Below, one piece after another: positions 54,681 to 60,192 of a stretch of DNA of 64,000 nt (positions are counted from its first letter, which is position 1; every line of letters starts with the position of its first letter). The DNA lies in contig JAKSIU010000004.1 of the NCBI GenBank assembly GCA_024398615.1, positions 40,882 through 104,881 on the forward strand, written 5' to 3'. The stretch is from Bacteroidaceae bacterium. Its GTDB lineage: Bacteria; Bacteroidota; Bacteroidia; Bacteroidales; Bacteroidaceae. The notes under the pieces were generated by a model. It was not told the DNA's origin. It made no database searches and was given only the letters and a program-made list of their open reading frames with translations. The position numbers were made by a program, and so were the translations under genes.

Positions 54681-55721
54681 TCAGTTGTTCTCAGGACGGA
54701 GCTTGCGTACAACAGCTCCGGTCTGCCACATCTCGCTTTCGCGCAGTGCCTTGAGCTCCTGCTCAAGTCCTTCACGGTAATCGGGCTTTGAGTTGGCATC
54801 AATGGAAATCTGAGCTTCGTTGCCGCAGCGTACACTTGCGTACAGCTTCTCGACAACCGGCTTGATGGCATCGTGGAACGGAACCATCCAGTCAAGGGCA
54901 CCGCGCTGTGCAGTGGTTGAGCAGTTGGCGTACATCCAGTCCATGCCCTTTGCTGCAAACAGCGGCATAAGAGACTGTGTCAGTTCTTCTACGGTTTCAT
55001 TGAAGGCTTCTGAAGGAGTGTGTCCGTTCTCACGAAGCACTTCGTACTGGGCAAGCAGAAGACCCTGGATAGCTCCCATCAGAGAACCGCGCTCGCCGGT
55101 AAGGTCCGATGTGGCCTCGCGGATGAATGTGGTTTCGAACAGGTAACCGGATCCGATACCGATACCGAATGCCAGAACCTTTTCAAGGGCCTTGCCTGAA
55201 GCGTCCTGATAGATGGCGTATGAACTGTTCAGACCGCGTCCTTCAAGGAACATGGTACGCAGTGATGTTCCTGAACCCTTTGGAGCAACCATGATGACAT
55301 CGATGTCCTTTGGTGGAACCACGCCTGTGCGGTCATTCCATGTGATTGCGAATCCGTGTGAGAAATACAGAGTCTTGCCTGCTGTCAGATAAGGCTTGAT
55401 TACAGGCCACTGCTGCATCTGGGCCGCATCGGACAGAAGCATGCAGATGATTGTACCCTTCTGGGCTGCTTCTTCAATTGAGAACAGGGTCTTTCCGGGA
55501 ACCCATCCGTCGGCGATGGCCTTTTCAAAGGTCTTGCCCTGACGCTGGCCGACAATGACGTTGAAACCGTTGTCGCGCAGGTTGCATGCCTGTCCCGGTC
55601 CCTGAACACCGTAGCCGATGACAGCGATTGTCTCGTTCTTCAACACTTCCCTTGCCTTTTCAAGCGGGAACTCTTCACGTGTCATGACTTCCTCAATGAC
55701 ACCGCCGAAATTCATTTTCAT
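54681..55721 (-). CDS. ilvC: Ketol-acid reductoisomerase
   Basis: A 346-residue class I KARI that isomerises and reduces acetolactate (or acetohydroxybutyrate) to the dihydroxy acid with NADPH. The nucleotide loop is IAVIGYGVQGPGQACNLRDNG. MVAPKGSGTSLR and the Mg/substrate residues in REATSDLTGERGSLMGAIQGL are intact, as is the C-terminal knotted domain. It is the last gene of ilvD-B-N-C, followed by a strong terminator. Confidence 0.96.
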   Translation of the reverse strand: MKMNFGGVIEEVMTREEFPLEKAREVLKNETIAVIGYGVQGPGQACNLRDNGFNVIVGQRQGKTFEKAIADGWVPGKTLFSIEEAAQKGTIICMLLSDAAQMQQWPVIKPYLTAGKTLYFSHGFAITWNDRTGVVPPKDIDVIMVAPKGSGTSLRTMFLEGRGLNSSYAIYQDASGKALEKVLAFGIGIGSGYLFETTFIREATSDLTGERGSLMGAIQGLLLAQYEVLRENGHTPSEAFNETVEELTQSLMPLFAAKGMDWMYANCSTTAQRGALDWMVPFHDAIKPVVEKLYASVRCGNEAQISIDANSKPDYREGLEQELKALRESEMWQTGAVVRKLRPENN

Positions 55722-55740: not shown

Positions 55741-56301
55741 TTACAAGTTCTTTATTCCATATTGGCTGGAAATCTTTTCCAGATACTCGTTTACATGTTC
55801 TATTCTTGCTCTTGTTATGGCAATACGTCCCGAACTGACAAACTGCAGCATGCCGCCCTGGGCTGTCAGTTCTTCGTTAAGTGCCATGATGTCGTGTGTG
55901 CTGCCGGTCTTCTCGATTACGGAGAAGGTCTGATTGACTTCAATCAGTTTGGCTCCGTATTTGCGGATTATGTCGTTCATGGCGGGGCTGTCAATCAGGA
56001 CCGATGTAACGACCTTGTACAGGGCAACTTCCTGCATGAATATCTCATCGTCAGTGAAATAGCGGCACTGAAGCACATCGACTTTCTTCTCGATCTGGCT
56101 TACAATCTTTTCAATTGTGTCCTTGTCACTCCATGCGGTTATGGTGTAACGGTGTATACCTTGAATTGACGATGCTGAAACGTTGAGGCTCTCGATGTTG
56201 ACCTGACGTCGGGTAAATACTGCCGTGACCTGATTCAGAACACCGGCAATGTTCTCAGAGTGTACTATCAGCGTGTATAATGTCTTTTCCATCATCTCCA
56301 T
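55741..56301 (-). CDS. ilvN: Acetolactate synthase small (regulatory) subunit
   Basis: 186 residues. The ACT domain at the N-terminus (YTLIVHSENIAGVLNQVTAVFTRRQVNIESLNVS) binds valine for feedback inhibition in homologues, and a C-terminal ACT-like half follows. It activates the large subunit. It overlaps ilvB by ten bases, so the two subunits are translationally coupled, and lies 19 bp before ilvC. The symbol ilvH would be equally valid. Confidence 0.93.
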   Translation of the reverse strand: MEMMEKTLYTLIVHSENIAGVLNQVTAVFTRRQVNIESLNVSASSIQGIHRYTITAWSDKDTIEKIVSQIEKKVDVLQCRYFTDDEIFMQEVALYKVVTSVLIDSPAMNDIIRKYGAKLIEVNQTFSVIEKTGSTHDIMALNEELTAQGGMLQFVSSGRIAITRARIEHVNEYLEKISSQYGIKNL

Positions 56302-58001
56302 TTCTCATCAATGGTAAATATCATATGGTCAACCGGTTCATGACCGGGAATCATGGGCATTACATTCTCCTCATCAAGGACTATCGTCTCAAGTATGAAT
56401 GCTCCGGGAGCCGCTATCATGTCCGATATGGCCTGTGCAAGTTCACGGCGGTCCATTACGCGGCGGAACGGGATTCCGTATGCACCGGCAATCATACTGA
56501 TGTCAGGACTTGTCATGTGAGTGCATGAATACCGGCTTTCGAACATCATCTGCTGCCACTGGCGTACGTTGCCCAGATAACTGTTGTTCATTACGATTAT
56601 CTTGACCGGAGCTCCGGTTTCCATGATAGTGCCCAGCTCCTGCATGTTCATCTGGAATCCTCCGTCTCCCTGGAACGAGAATACCATGCGCTCCTGATCG
56701 CCGAAGGTGGCGCCTATTGCGGCCGGCAGCGAGAATCCCATGGTTCCAAGTCCGCCCGAAGTGATTATGCTGCGTGGAACCGAGTACTTGAAATAACGGG
56801 CTGCGAACATCTGGTTCAGTCCGACATCGGTTACAAGCGCGGCATCGGACGGAGCCTGCATGGCTATGGCATTTACGACCTCACCCATGAGAAGGGGACC
56901 TTCGCCCGGATTGATGGCATGGTCAATGACCTTTTCATGTTCTTTCTGTGCCAATGGCTTGAATTCTTTAATCCACTCCTTGTGACAGGTCCTGGATATG
57001 CGTTCCGTTATGAGCGCGAGAGTGCGGCGGCAGTCTCCAAGGACTGTAACATCGGGCTTTACGTTCTTTCCGAATTCCGACTTGTCTATGTCCAGATGTA
57101 TGATCTTTGCCTGACGGGCATAACTGTCGACTGCGCTGGTTACCCTGTCGTCAAAACGCATGCCCACAGCAATGAGAAGGTCACAGCGGTTGGTCATGAC
57201 GTTCGGGGCAAGATTACCGTGCATGCCCAGCATACCCATGTTCAACGGATGGCCGGACGGCAGTGCCGACAGTCCCAACAGGGTGCGTGCGGCAGGTGCA
57301 TCGGCTTTTTCTATGAATGCCTTGAGTTCATTTTCGGCATTACCCAGTTCAACTCCGTGCCCGACAAGAACCAGAGGCCTTGTGCTGCAGTCAATCAGTC
57401 TGGCTGCTGCTTCAATTTCACTCATGTCCGGTTCGGGTGACGGTATGTAGCTGCGTACGAAATCGATCTTTTCAGGGCTGTAATCAACGGTCTCGTTCTG
57501 GGCGGTCTTTGTGAAGTCAAGCACAACCGGACCGGGACGGCCGGACTGGGCAATGTAGAAGGCTCTTGCAACAGCCCAGGAAATGTCTTGGGCGCGTCTT
57601 ATCTGGTAACTCCATTTGGTTATAGGCTGGGTTACACCTACAAGGTCAATTTCCTGGAATGCGTCCGTTCCAAGCGCATCGGTTCCGACCTGTCCTGCAA
57701 TGACTACTATTGGGGTGCTGTCCAGCATGGCATCGCTGATTCCAGTCAATGTGTTGGTGGCTCCGGGACCGCTGGTGACAATTGCTACACCCGGTTTGCC
57801 GGAAATGCGTGCGTAACCCTGGGCTGCGTGTGTGGCGCCCTGCTCGTGGCGCACCAGAATCTGTTTCAGATCAGATTGGTGGGAGAACAGTGAGTCGAAT
57901 ACCCTGATTATGTTTCCTCCGGGATATACGAACGCTGTGTCAACGCCCTGGTTGAGCAATGATTGGATAAGTGCCTCTGCGCCTGTAATTATGTTCGCCA
58001 T
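56292..58001 (-). CDS. ilvB: Acetolactate synthase large subunit
   Basis: A 569-residue ThDP enzyme that condenses two pyruvates, or pyruvate with 2-oxobutyrate. GADTAF-type start (GVDTAFVYPGGNIIRVFD), catalytic Glu in LVRHEQGATHAAQGYAR (about 52), FAD-binding region about 190-350, and the ThDP-Mg motif GDGGFQMNMQELGTIMETG with MNNSYLG (about 450-485) are all present. It follows ilvD by four bases. Confidence 0.95.
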   Translation of the reverse strand: MANIITGAEALIQSLLNQGVDTAFVYPGGNIIRVFDSLFSHQSDLKQILVRHEQGATHAAQGYARISGKPGVAIVTSGPGATNTLTGISDAMLDSTPIVVIAGQVGTDALGTDAFQEIDLVGVTQPITKWSYQIRRAQDISWAVARAFYIAQSGRPGPVVLDFTKTAQNETVDYSPEKIDFVRSYIPSPEPDMSEIEAAARLIDCSTRPLVLVGHGVELGNAENELKAFIEKADAPAARTLLGLSALPSGHPLNMGMLGMHGNLAPNVMTNRCDLLIAVGMRFDDRVTSAVDSYARQAKIIHLDIDKSEFGKNVKPDVTVLGDCRRTLALITERISRTCHKEWIKEFKPLAQKEHEKVIDHAINPGEGPLLMGEVVNAIAMQAPSDAALVTDVGLNQMFAARYFKYSVPRSIITSGGLGTMGFSLPAAIGATFGDQERMVFSFQGDGGFQMNMQELGTIMETGAPVKIIVMNNSYLGNVRQWQQMMFESRYSCTHMTSPDISMIAGAYGIPFRRVMDRRELAQAISDMIAAPGAFILETIVLDEENVMPMIPGHEPVDHMIFTIDEKWR

Positions 58002-58005
58002 GTAA

Positions 58006-59808
58006 TTATTCTATTATTCTGATTCCACCCTTGTCGGCCGAACTGACCATGTTGGCATACGCCTTGAGACTCTTGGGTACCACGCGCTTGCGGGTAAGCG
58101 GACGCATGGGTCTTGCCTCCAGTTCACTGTCGCTCAGACGGACATTGATGCTGCGTGCTGGAATGTCAATGTCTATGATATCTCCGTCAACGACCTTGCC
58201 TATGGCTCCACCGCTGGCTGCCTCCGGTGATATGTGACCTATGCTGAGGCCCGATGTCCCACCGCTGAAACGTCCGTCGGTGATGAGCGCGCACTGCTTG
58301 CCGAGATGGCGTGATTTGATGTATGAGGTGGGGTAGAGCATTTCCTGCATGCCAGGGCCACCCTTGGGCCCTTCGTGGGTGATGACCACTACATCGCCTG
58401 CCACGACCTTGCCGCCAAGTATGCCATCCACGGCATCCTCCTGAGAATCAAATACCTTTGCCGGTCCTGAGAACTTCCATATGCCTTCATCAACTCCTGC
58501 GGTCTTGATTACGCAGCCGTCAACGGCAATGTTGCCTTTCAGGATGGCCAGACCGCCATCTTTGGAATATGCGTGCTGAAGGTCGCGTATGCAACCCTCG
58601 CTGCGGTCAGTGTCAAGGCTGTCATACTTGCAGCCCTGTGCGCCGAGCGTGTTGCAGAAACGGTTTGCCGGGGCCGATGAATATATGCGCAGGGCTTCAT
58701 CGGCCGGTGCGGACTTTTCAATGCTGTATTCGTCAGTCAGCTTTGCGTAATCCATTCCGGTAACGTTCATGGCCTTGTCACAGATGAGTCCGCCTTTCCT
58801 CAACTGCTCCATGATTCCAAGCACGCCTCCGGCACGGCCTACATCCTGAACATGATATTTCTGGGTGTTCGGGGCGACTTTGCAGAGACAGGGTACCTTT
58901 CTGGAAAGACGGTCAATGTCGTCCATTGTGAAATCCACTCCCGCTTCATTCGCTACGGCCAGCAGATGCAGTACGGTATTTGTGGAACCGCCCATTGCAA
59001 TGTCCAGCGCCATGGCATTCTCAAAAGCATGTTTCCTTGCTATGTTCAGAGGAAGCAGACTGTCATCGCCCTGCTCATAATAGGCAAGGGCATTCCTGAC
59101 AATCAGTCTGGCTGCATCGCGCATAAGCTGGACCCTGTTCTCATGTGTGGCAAGGATGGTTCCGTTGCCGGGAAGAGAGAATCCCAGCGCTTCAGTCAGG
59201 CAGTTCATGGAATTGGCCGTGAACATGCCGGAACAGCATCCGCATCCGGGACAGGCATTGTCTTCGAGGCTGGCCATATCGGCATCGCTGACACTGTCAT
59301 CGGCTCCTTTCACCATTGCATCGATAAGGTCAACATGCTGTCCCTTCCACTCGCCTGCTTCCATGGGACCTCCGCTCACGAAAACGGTGGGTATGTTCAG
59401 ACGCATGGTGGCCATGAGCATTCCCGGGGTAATCTTGTCGCAGTTGCTTATGCAGACCAGAGCATCGGCCTTATGTGCATTGACCATGTATTCCACGCTG
59501 TCGGCAATGATGTCACGTGATGGCAGTGAGTACAGCATGCCGTCATGTCCCATGGCAATGCCGTCATCAATGGCAATTGTGTTGAATTCGGCGGCATAGC
59601 AGCCAAGACGCTCGATCTCGGCCTTGACAATCTGTCCTGCTTCGTGCAGATGGGTATGTCCTGGTACGAACTGGGTGAACGAATTGGCTATTGCAATGAT
59701 CGGCTTGCCGAACTGTTCCTTCTTCATGCCGTTGGCGACCCAAAGGGCGCGGGCTGCTGCCATACGCCTGCCTTCAGTACACTGGCTGCTTCTGAGTGGA
59801 ATTTTCAT
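58006..59808 (-). CDS. ilvD: Dihydroxy-acid dehydratase
   Basis: A 600-residue IlvD that dehydrates dihydroxy acids to the 2-oxo acids of valine and isoleucine. Iron-sulfur ligands are in [11 protein letters not shown] (about 122) and [16 protein letters not shown] (about 195). [23 protein letters not shown] is the substrate-loop signature near 510. It is the first structural gene of the operon. Its mRNA begins with the Val leader and attenuator, so its synthesis should rise when charged tRNA-Val is scarce. Confidence 0.96.
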
Positions 59809-59828: not shown

Positions 59829-59862
59829 CAAAAAAGCCCTTCTCTTTGTGGAGAAAGGCCTT
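59829..59862 (-). terminator. Attenuator terminator in the ilv leader
   Basis: Minus strand: AAGGCCTTTCTC (59862-59851) pairs with GAGAAGGGCTT (59844-59834) with one bulged G and a six-base loop, followed by a run of T. It lies between the leader stop codon and ilvD, where it can only act as a regulated terminator. Confidence 0.85.
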
Positions 59863-59893
59863 ATCTTGTTTTGTCTGAAGTGTACCTTACTCC
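59850..59893 (-). promoter_or_regulatory. Antiterminator pairing of the ilv attenuator
   Basis: Minus strand: GGAGTAAGG (59893-59885), which contains the leader stop codon, can pair with CCTTTCTCC (59858-59850) in the 5' arm of the terminator: eight of nine bases match. A ribosome stalled on the Val codons leaves it free; one that reaches the stop codon covers it. Confidence 0.65.
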
Positions 59894-59958
59894 TGGAATG
59901 ACGGTTTGACGACCACCACACCTACGCTGTATACTGATACCACTGCTGACGGATTCAT
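59887..59958 (-). CDS. Valine-rich leader peptide of the ilv operon
   Basis: A 23-codon reading frame, ATG to TAA, too short for ordinary gene finding. Eight of its residues are Val, at 6, 7, 9, 12, 14, 15, 16 and 17, including four in a row (GVVVV). It has no Ile or Leu. It starts about 17 bases after the predicted transcription start and stops 25 bp before the attenuator hairpin. Like IlvL or IvbL of enteric bacteria, its translation should sense Val-tRNA supply. The peptide itself probably has no further job. Confidence 0.82.
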   Translation of the reverse strand: MNPSAVVSVYSVGVVVVKPSFQE

Positions 59959-59982
59959 TCCAATACTATTATTAATTGACTG

Positions 59983-60013
59983 CAAAAATACTAATTTCTT
60001 TGAGCTTGTCAAA
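59983..60013 (-). promoter_or_regulatory. Promoter of the ilvD-B-N-C operon
   Basis: Minus strand: TTTG (60010-60013), 19 bp, TATTTTTG (59983-59990), full consensus. The predicted start near 59975 puts the leader ATG about 17 nt downstream. Confidence 0.75.
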
Positions 60014-60045
60014 CTTATTGGCATTATTATTGATAAGGTGCTGAA

Positions 60046-60124
60046 GCCGCCACTCTTTCAGCGGTGGAACGGAAGCCACCATGGCCTTTGGCGGTTTCCG
60101 CTCCACCGCTAAAGGCGTGGCGGC
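60046..60124. repeat. Long hairpin repeat upstream of the Rpn gene
   Basis: Two 35-bp arms (60046-60080 and 60090-60124) match in 29 positions and close a nine-base loop. The arm contains GCCGCCAC and AGCGGTGGAACGGAAGCC. Related arms occur at 61187-61206 and 61388-61407 on the other side of the Rpn gene. Confidence 0.75.
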
Positions 60125-60192
60125 AGTGACTTCTGCCTGCCGCTGAAATCATTATTTGTGGTTTCGATATAATGACGTTCAAATCCGCCAGC

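Follow-up and report, generated by a model that had tools for sequence, protein, structure and literature searches.

Leader-peptide attenuation is a textbook mode of control in enteric bacteria, and the closest relative in kind of the locus described here is the ivbL leader of the Escherichia coli ilvBN operon. In both, a leader peptide with a run of Val codons, alternative hairpins, and an intrinsic terminator stand before a branched-chain operon. The ivbL leader, however, also contains Leu codons and precedes ilvBN, whereas the present leader precedes ilvDBNC, and the two are likened by their layout. The leaders of ilvGMEDA and leu and the trp and his attenuators of E. coli share with the locus the predicted 1:2, 2:3, and 3:4 pairings and a stop codon near segment 2. 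Unlike in these systems, segment 2 of the Bacteroidales leaders nearly repeats segment 4 and extends across the stop codon (it lies inside the frame in 10 of the 40 leaders aligned here). The T-box riboswitches of Firmicutes are alike in physiological role, but they work by binding tRNA themselves, with no leader frame required. The abstract of Vitreschak 2004 is said to place Bacteroidetes/Chlorobi among the groups with candidate attenuators, which limits any claim to novelty. PMC1262725 concerns actinobacterial attenuators, in which leader peptides likewise precede amino-acid operons outside Proteobacteria; they belong to another phylum and are likened by description. In Bacteroides thetaiotaomicron, the relevant part of Ryan et al. 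2020 (PMC7366714) reports long 5' UTRs with short frames reminiscent of attenuating leader peptides, and the main text of that paper does not contain "ilv". The passages concerned of PMC4833913 report a peak in the leader–gene distance in Bacteroidetes and name no ilvD attenuator. Among the titles and abstract openings listed by searches of an open-access library, a comparison that lies apart from two earlier comparative papers (Vitreschak 2004, Lopatovskaya 2010), none dealt with an ilvD, leuA, or hisG attenuator in Bacteroidota. An earlier note on this DNA had called such attenuation sparsely documented in the phylum, and these titles and abstract openings agree with it. The kind of mechanism is already known, and the ilvD leader is a well-supported addition in a phylum for which little was found.

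The window analyzed here is the whole stretch of 64,000 nucleotides from a Bacteroidaceae bacterium, and the device and the operon behind it lie on its minus strand. The operon consists of ilvD (dihydroxy-acid dehydratase, 58006–59808), ilvB (acetolactate synthase large subunit, 56292–58001), ilvN (acetolactate synthase small subunit, 55741–56301), and ilvC (ketol-acid reductoisomerase, 54681–55721), all of which passed the NCBIfam cut-offs. Upstream of them, a −33-like element, TTTG (60010–60013), is separated by 19 nt from a −7-like element, TATTTTTG (59983–59990), which matches TAnnTTTG and was also identified by a survey of boxes in relatives. These boxes fit TTTG/TAnnTTTG, which we take to be the promoter consensus of the Bacteroides sigma factor. 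The leader frame (59887–59958), found in the sequence and in the frame scan, begins about 25 nt after the −7-like box with an ATG at 59958, and its TAA ends at 59887. The predicted peptide, MNPSAVVSVYSVGVVVVKPSFQE, has 23 codons, of which eight are Val and none is Ile or Leu, and four consecutive Val codons, GTG GTG GTC GTC (59908–59919), form the putative regulatory run. A chance origin of this frame was ruled out. In 2000 dinucleotide shuffles of 60130–59809, no ATG frame of 10–40 codons with VVVV or at least eight Val arose, and VVVV occurs in 1 of the 825 ATG frames of that length in the window, the ilvD leader alone.

Between the leader and ilvD stands an intrinsic terminator (segments 3:4, 59833–59862, −15.9 kcal/mol), predicted from its structure and conservation. 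The GC-rich hairpin, AAGGCCTTTCTC-CACAAA-GAGAAGGGCTTT, has 12 pairs and runs directly into TTTTTT (59830–59835), about 25 nt upstream of ilvD. A pattern scan for terminators returned no site on either strand; we infer that extension of the stem swallowed the T-run. The 181-nt leader RNA folds modestly better than its shuffles (z = −1.91; 8 of 200 shuffles were as good). Promoter, 23-codon leader with its eight Val codons, and terminator with T-run were thus all found as the earlier note had listed them. Control of ilvD at translation or by Rho, in place of intrinsic termination, is very unlikely given a GC-rich hairpin and T-run at this position that are conserved with changes on both sides of the stem. 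None of the Rfam leader families (his, trp, thr, leu, and others) scored at or above its gathering threshold here, and the T-box riboswitch model had no match at the locus. A match to S15-Flavobacteria at 59956–59990 (30.7 bits against a gathering score of 46.5, E = 0.05) was taken as chance. Upstream of the leader promoter, at 60040–60130, the window contains a long inverted repeat with imperfect arms, which may be a small repetitive element. It has nine more partial matches (82–94% identity) on four contigs of the same genome, some of which overlap on opposite strands, and the miRNA-like Rfam matches over 60040–60132 were discarded as sitting on this repeat. A gene of the Rpn-family nuclease/putative transposase (TIGR01784, 60156–61163) is encoded on the plus strand and points away from the attenuator.

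Two further pairings, neither of which the earlier note had named, were found by comparison with relatives. The alignment comprised 40 leaders, 12 from the genus and 28 from outside it, with 38 distinct rows. Strand A, GGAGTAAGG (59885–59893), spans the leader stop codon and can pair with strand B, CCTTTCTCC (59850–59858), which is segment 3 and lies in the 5' arm of the terminator; both strands were identified from pairing and alignment. Strand A and the 3' arm of the terminator (C) therefore compete for B. In P. vulgatus (L039), the corresponding strands are GUGAGAAAGG with UGA inside (A), CCUUUCUCAC (B), and GUGAGGAAGG (C). The A:B pairing of the window is imperfect, with 8 of 10 aligned positions paired, and the 2:3 region has −11.2 kcal/mol. 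The second pairing is a predicted 1:2 hairpin (59895–59922, −9.7 kcal/mol), in which the Val-codon segment pairs with the stretch just upstream of A, and its helix is conserved in relatives. In folds of single sequences, some bases of A pair with the leader in 38 of the 40; none do so in the window or in L041. The 1:2 hairpin of the window does not take in A, and its 1:2 and 2:3 pairings are adjacent with no overlap. The pairings 1:2, 2:3, and 3:4 would correspond to those of the classical attenuator, with 1:2 and 2:3 merely adjacent in the window. An initial reading as a three-segment device lacking the 1:2 hairpin was dropped after consensus folding and pair counts.

Covariation was assessed against slid controls, in which the same helix was kept and one side was moved by 1–3 columns. 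For A:B, 93.7% of the cells were paired (slid controls, 47–66%) with 24 both-side changes; pair 2-72, for instance, is UA in 24 and GC in 12 of the 38 distinct rows. The terminator had 89.8% of its cells paired (slid, 41–71%) with 21 both-side changes, and the 1:2 hairpin 81.4% (slid, 38–50%) with 20, the five pairs that reach A failing in 2–16 of the 40 rows. None of 500 shuffles reached the values of any of the three helices for cells paired, both-side-changed cells, or covariation score, with the caveat that related sequences can beat shuffles even when they hold no structure. The signal is weaker on a coarser count: 6 (terminator), 46 (A:B), and 69 (1:2) of the 500 shuffles had at least as many pairs changed on both sides. 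At least as many further pair types were seen in 3, 4, and 113 shuffles, respectively. Strand A was chosen for its fit to B, and the statistic for A:B is favored by that choice. Against shuffles of each sequence, at most 4% reached the A:B score in the 28 leaders from outside the genus and none of 300 each did so in the window, L002, and L003, whereas A:B was weak in the nine other leaders of the genus (3–19% of shuffles). The antiterminator strand thus shares the terminator 5' arm and sits at the leader stop codon, and it is weaker in the window itself. The three helices, all above their slid controls, and the operon-matched leader residues described below strongly support the ilv/trp-type layout that had been proposed for this locus. 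Alignment of ilvD upstream regions across Bacteroidales, as suggested in that proposal, largely upheld it. The frame, the Val codons, the position of the stop, and the terminator recur and both-side changes are present, although the leader is often missing in close relatives. The Val codons of the 28 leaders from outside the genus are 67 GTC, 59 GTG, 7 GTA, and 6 GTT, unlike those of the window's ilvDBNC genes (39 GTC, 16 GTG, 34 GTA, and 28 GTT); this bias may come from tRNA choice or from the 1:2 pairing.

Leaders were also selected by structure with the amino acids ignored. To qualify, a locus had to show a terminator, a strand upstream that could pair with the 5' arm of this terminator, and an ATG frame whose stop codon lies close to that strand. 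Under these criteria, which were written after leaders of these operons had been viewed, 37 of 108 ilvD, 21 of 30 leuA, 19 of 30 hisG, and 2 of 30 cysK loci were selected, together with 1 of 756 dinucleotide shuffles overall. The sets other than ilvD were the best matches, up to 30 each, from 43 family genomes (leuA, hisG, thrA, and trpE) or 61 phylum genomes (cysK). In the window's family, none of 29 thrA loci (one of the 30 was too short) and none of 25 full-length trpE loci were selected. Over the last residues of the selected frames, up to 18 each, the ilvD picks contained 25.5% Val, 10.1% Ile, and 10.7% Leu, and the hisG picks 25.5% His. The leuA picks were moderately enriched, with 15.2% Leu and 13.6% Ile. 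Two of the 37 ilvD picks are spurious (L006 and L019, with an unrelated hairpin), and the criteria overlooked five leaders that had been accepted by eye (L003, L037, L080, L088, and L109). This match between amino acid and operon is the strongest evidence that ribosomes read the leaders. For thrA in the window's family, Thr- and Met-rich frames were seen by eye, but none of the 29 loci was selected by structure and no claim is made. Attenuator-like leaders before leuA were recorded in the genus (L146–L150) and in the family (L166–L195). The five genus leaders are Ile-rich, not Leu-rich, with MRLQGFIIISIIIPDCRCEEA or close to it, and in the window's own genome no leader was seen before leuA (L256). 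One of its two hisG copies (L258, G000:C49:1-2400) is preceded by the His leader MRYVFHHIHHHHSTCRP and by a hairpin resembling a terminator; contig C49 is 5.3 kb long, and contamination is possible for this copy. The other copy (L257, C16) has no His-rich frame within 260 nt upstream.

Here, we propose a mechanism that builds on what was observed: the parts themselves, how they are conserved and covary, and the agreement between leader amino acid and operon type. From these, we consider with high confidence that ilvD is preceded by a classical ribosome-mediated transcription attenuator. In this model, RNA polymerase would start about 20 nt upstream of the leader ATG, as placed by the promoter box, and a ribosome would translate the leader. 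When charged Val-tRNA is ample, the ribosome would reach the stop codon and cover strand A, leaving B to pair with C, and the transcript would end at the T-run after about 150 nt. Under a shortage of Val-tRNA, the ribosome would stall in the Val run and open the 1:2 hairpin, and the freed strand A would take B, block the terminator, and allow ilvDBNC to be transcribed. Counted from where the last codon of the run begins, strand A lies 12–15 nt away in 27 of the 40 leaders (range, 8–23) and 17 nt away in the window, where that codon is the last one for Val. A ribosome reaches about 12–15 nt beyond its A site. Such spacing would suit a stalled ribosome that leaves A free and a ribosome at the stop codon that covers it. 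In 10 of the 40 leaders (L037, L038, L040, L044, L046, L050, L055, L057, L061, and L071), A lies inside the frame, and the stop follows 20–26 nt after the start of A. Through the leader and the switchable terminator, the bacterium would very probably detect a shortage of valine and respond by expressing its genes for Val, Ile, and Leu.

Within the genus, IlvD was found in all 37 genomes, and the start of ilvD was readable in 35 (L001–L030 and L111–L115). The leader is kept in 12 of these and absent in 23. Every leaderless member (23 of 23) but no leader-bearing one (0 of 12) carries a TAnnTTTG box at 26–85 nt upstream of ilvD; conversely, a box at 179–193 nt is found in 11 of the 12 leader-bearing and in none of the 23 leaderless members. 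In shuffles, such boxes occur at rates of 3–5% (26–85 nt) and about 1% (179–193 nt). As drawn, with an outgroup of six loci picked for having leaders, the IlvD tree intersperses leader-bearing and leaderless members, and several of its forks are weak. Since the promoter box of leaderless members adjoins ilvD, the simplest reading of the absences is repeated secondary loss of the leader. A hairpin-like 3' arm, recognized by pattern match, remains behind the promoter box in 6 of the 23 leaderless members, so the hairpin can outlast the leader. This would accord with an incidental frame beside a hairpin that serves simply as a terminator or as a stabilizer at the 5' end of the mRNA. That explanation is highly improbable, because the leader residues fit the operon (ilvD, leuA, and hisG) under selection blind to amino acids and because A and B covary. 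Absence of the leader from close relatives, which had been named as evidence against it, is found in part within the genus, in 23 of 35 members; yet the leader recurs across the order.

Outside the genus, a second collection of 80 named loci was reduced to 73 distinct ones, since comparison of the last 120 nt showed that six duplicate genomes of the genus and one duplicates another locus; the leader was accepted by eye in 28 of the 73. A covariance model of the ilvD leader, searched across the order, had matches at E ≤ 1e-4 in 43 of 149 genomes. Of the 20 loci listed, 19 were read, the window among them, and all 19 have leaders rich in Val, Ile, or Leu before an ilvD-like gene, as judged from the gene start. 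These order-wide leaders bear on the possibility of an arrest peptide, which would stall the ribosome on a ligand in the manner of TnaC and not sense codon supply. The motif HIIRVVV, common to many Bacteroides-type leaders, could be read in that way. Across the order, however, the leaders vary in sequence yet keep their V/I/L runs (for example, MKLLNTVLVVVVVVVLKNIE and MFALVVSVLVIILVVVASGSGKVC), and the same architecture carries His runs before hisG, which makes an arrest peptide extremely unlikely. Codon-sensing attenuation remains the preferred reading. Family-wide, matches in 173 of 251 genomes at E ≤ 0.01 were not taken as a count of ilvD leaders, because the model was built from the same family and some places match on both strands, like bare hairpins. 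Among 20 further places in the family chosen from below the 30 listed, 16 precede leuA-like and 4 precede ilvD-like genes. Phylum-wide, the model found matches at E ≤ 1e-4 in 28 of 247 genomes. The window's family accounts for three of these, the window's own genome included, and the matches in the others are weak. Of 17 new loci in the phylum, seven are plain-terminator-like or ambiguous, and ten are leader-like before other amino-acid genes, which were checked with NCBIfam: trpE in six (with runs such as WAWWW), aspartokinase in one (Thr/Ile), cysteine synthase in one (MANCCCCCKTCQSEREACI), and ilvE in two (Ile runs). Trp-rich frames (for example, GWWWG and WAWWW) precede trpE outside the window's class in L282, L284, L285, L286, L288, and L289. 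Frames with Cys runs and terminator-like hairpins stand before cysteine synthase of distant Bacteroidota in L290, L359, and L360 (MANCCCCCKTCQSEREACI and two more with CCC).

The signal itself was described in the earlier note as valine. This fits the leaders of the window (L001), L002, and L003, the only ones of the 40 that lack both Ile and Leu. The other 37 carry Ile and/or Leu, which rules out sensing of Val alone as the general state, and the wider device is therefore probably a joint sensor of the branched-chain amino acids. A possible though less favored extension, compatible with the attenuator proposed above, is that the signal consists of branched-chain amino acids generally and that the Val-only leader reflects drift in this lineage. 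The rarity of such leaders among the 40 speaks for it; against it, the window leader, with eight Val and no Ile or Leu, would by its codons stall on Val alone of the three. For the window, sensing of valine is retained as the reading.

Bacteroidota are dominant bacteria of the gut. We lean toward the view that leader-peptide attenuation is a main, phylum-wide control of how they make amino acids (the branched-chain ones and His, with hints for Trp, Thr, and Cys) and that it is ancestral before ilvD in Bacteroidales. If so, transcription and translation would be closely coupled in Bacteroidota, at least on leaders; to our knowledge, such close coupling is not established for this phylum. A conserved attenuator that senses codons would make the control of ilv, leu, and his predictable from sequence, and it would offer a handle on whether ribosomes closely trail RNA polymerase in these bacteria. 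The genus of the window, in which the leader is repeatedly absent and the promoter box then adjoins ilvD, would provide a natural experiment.
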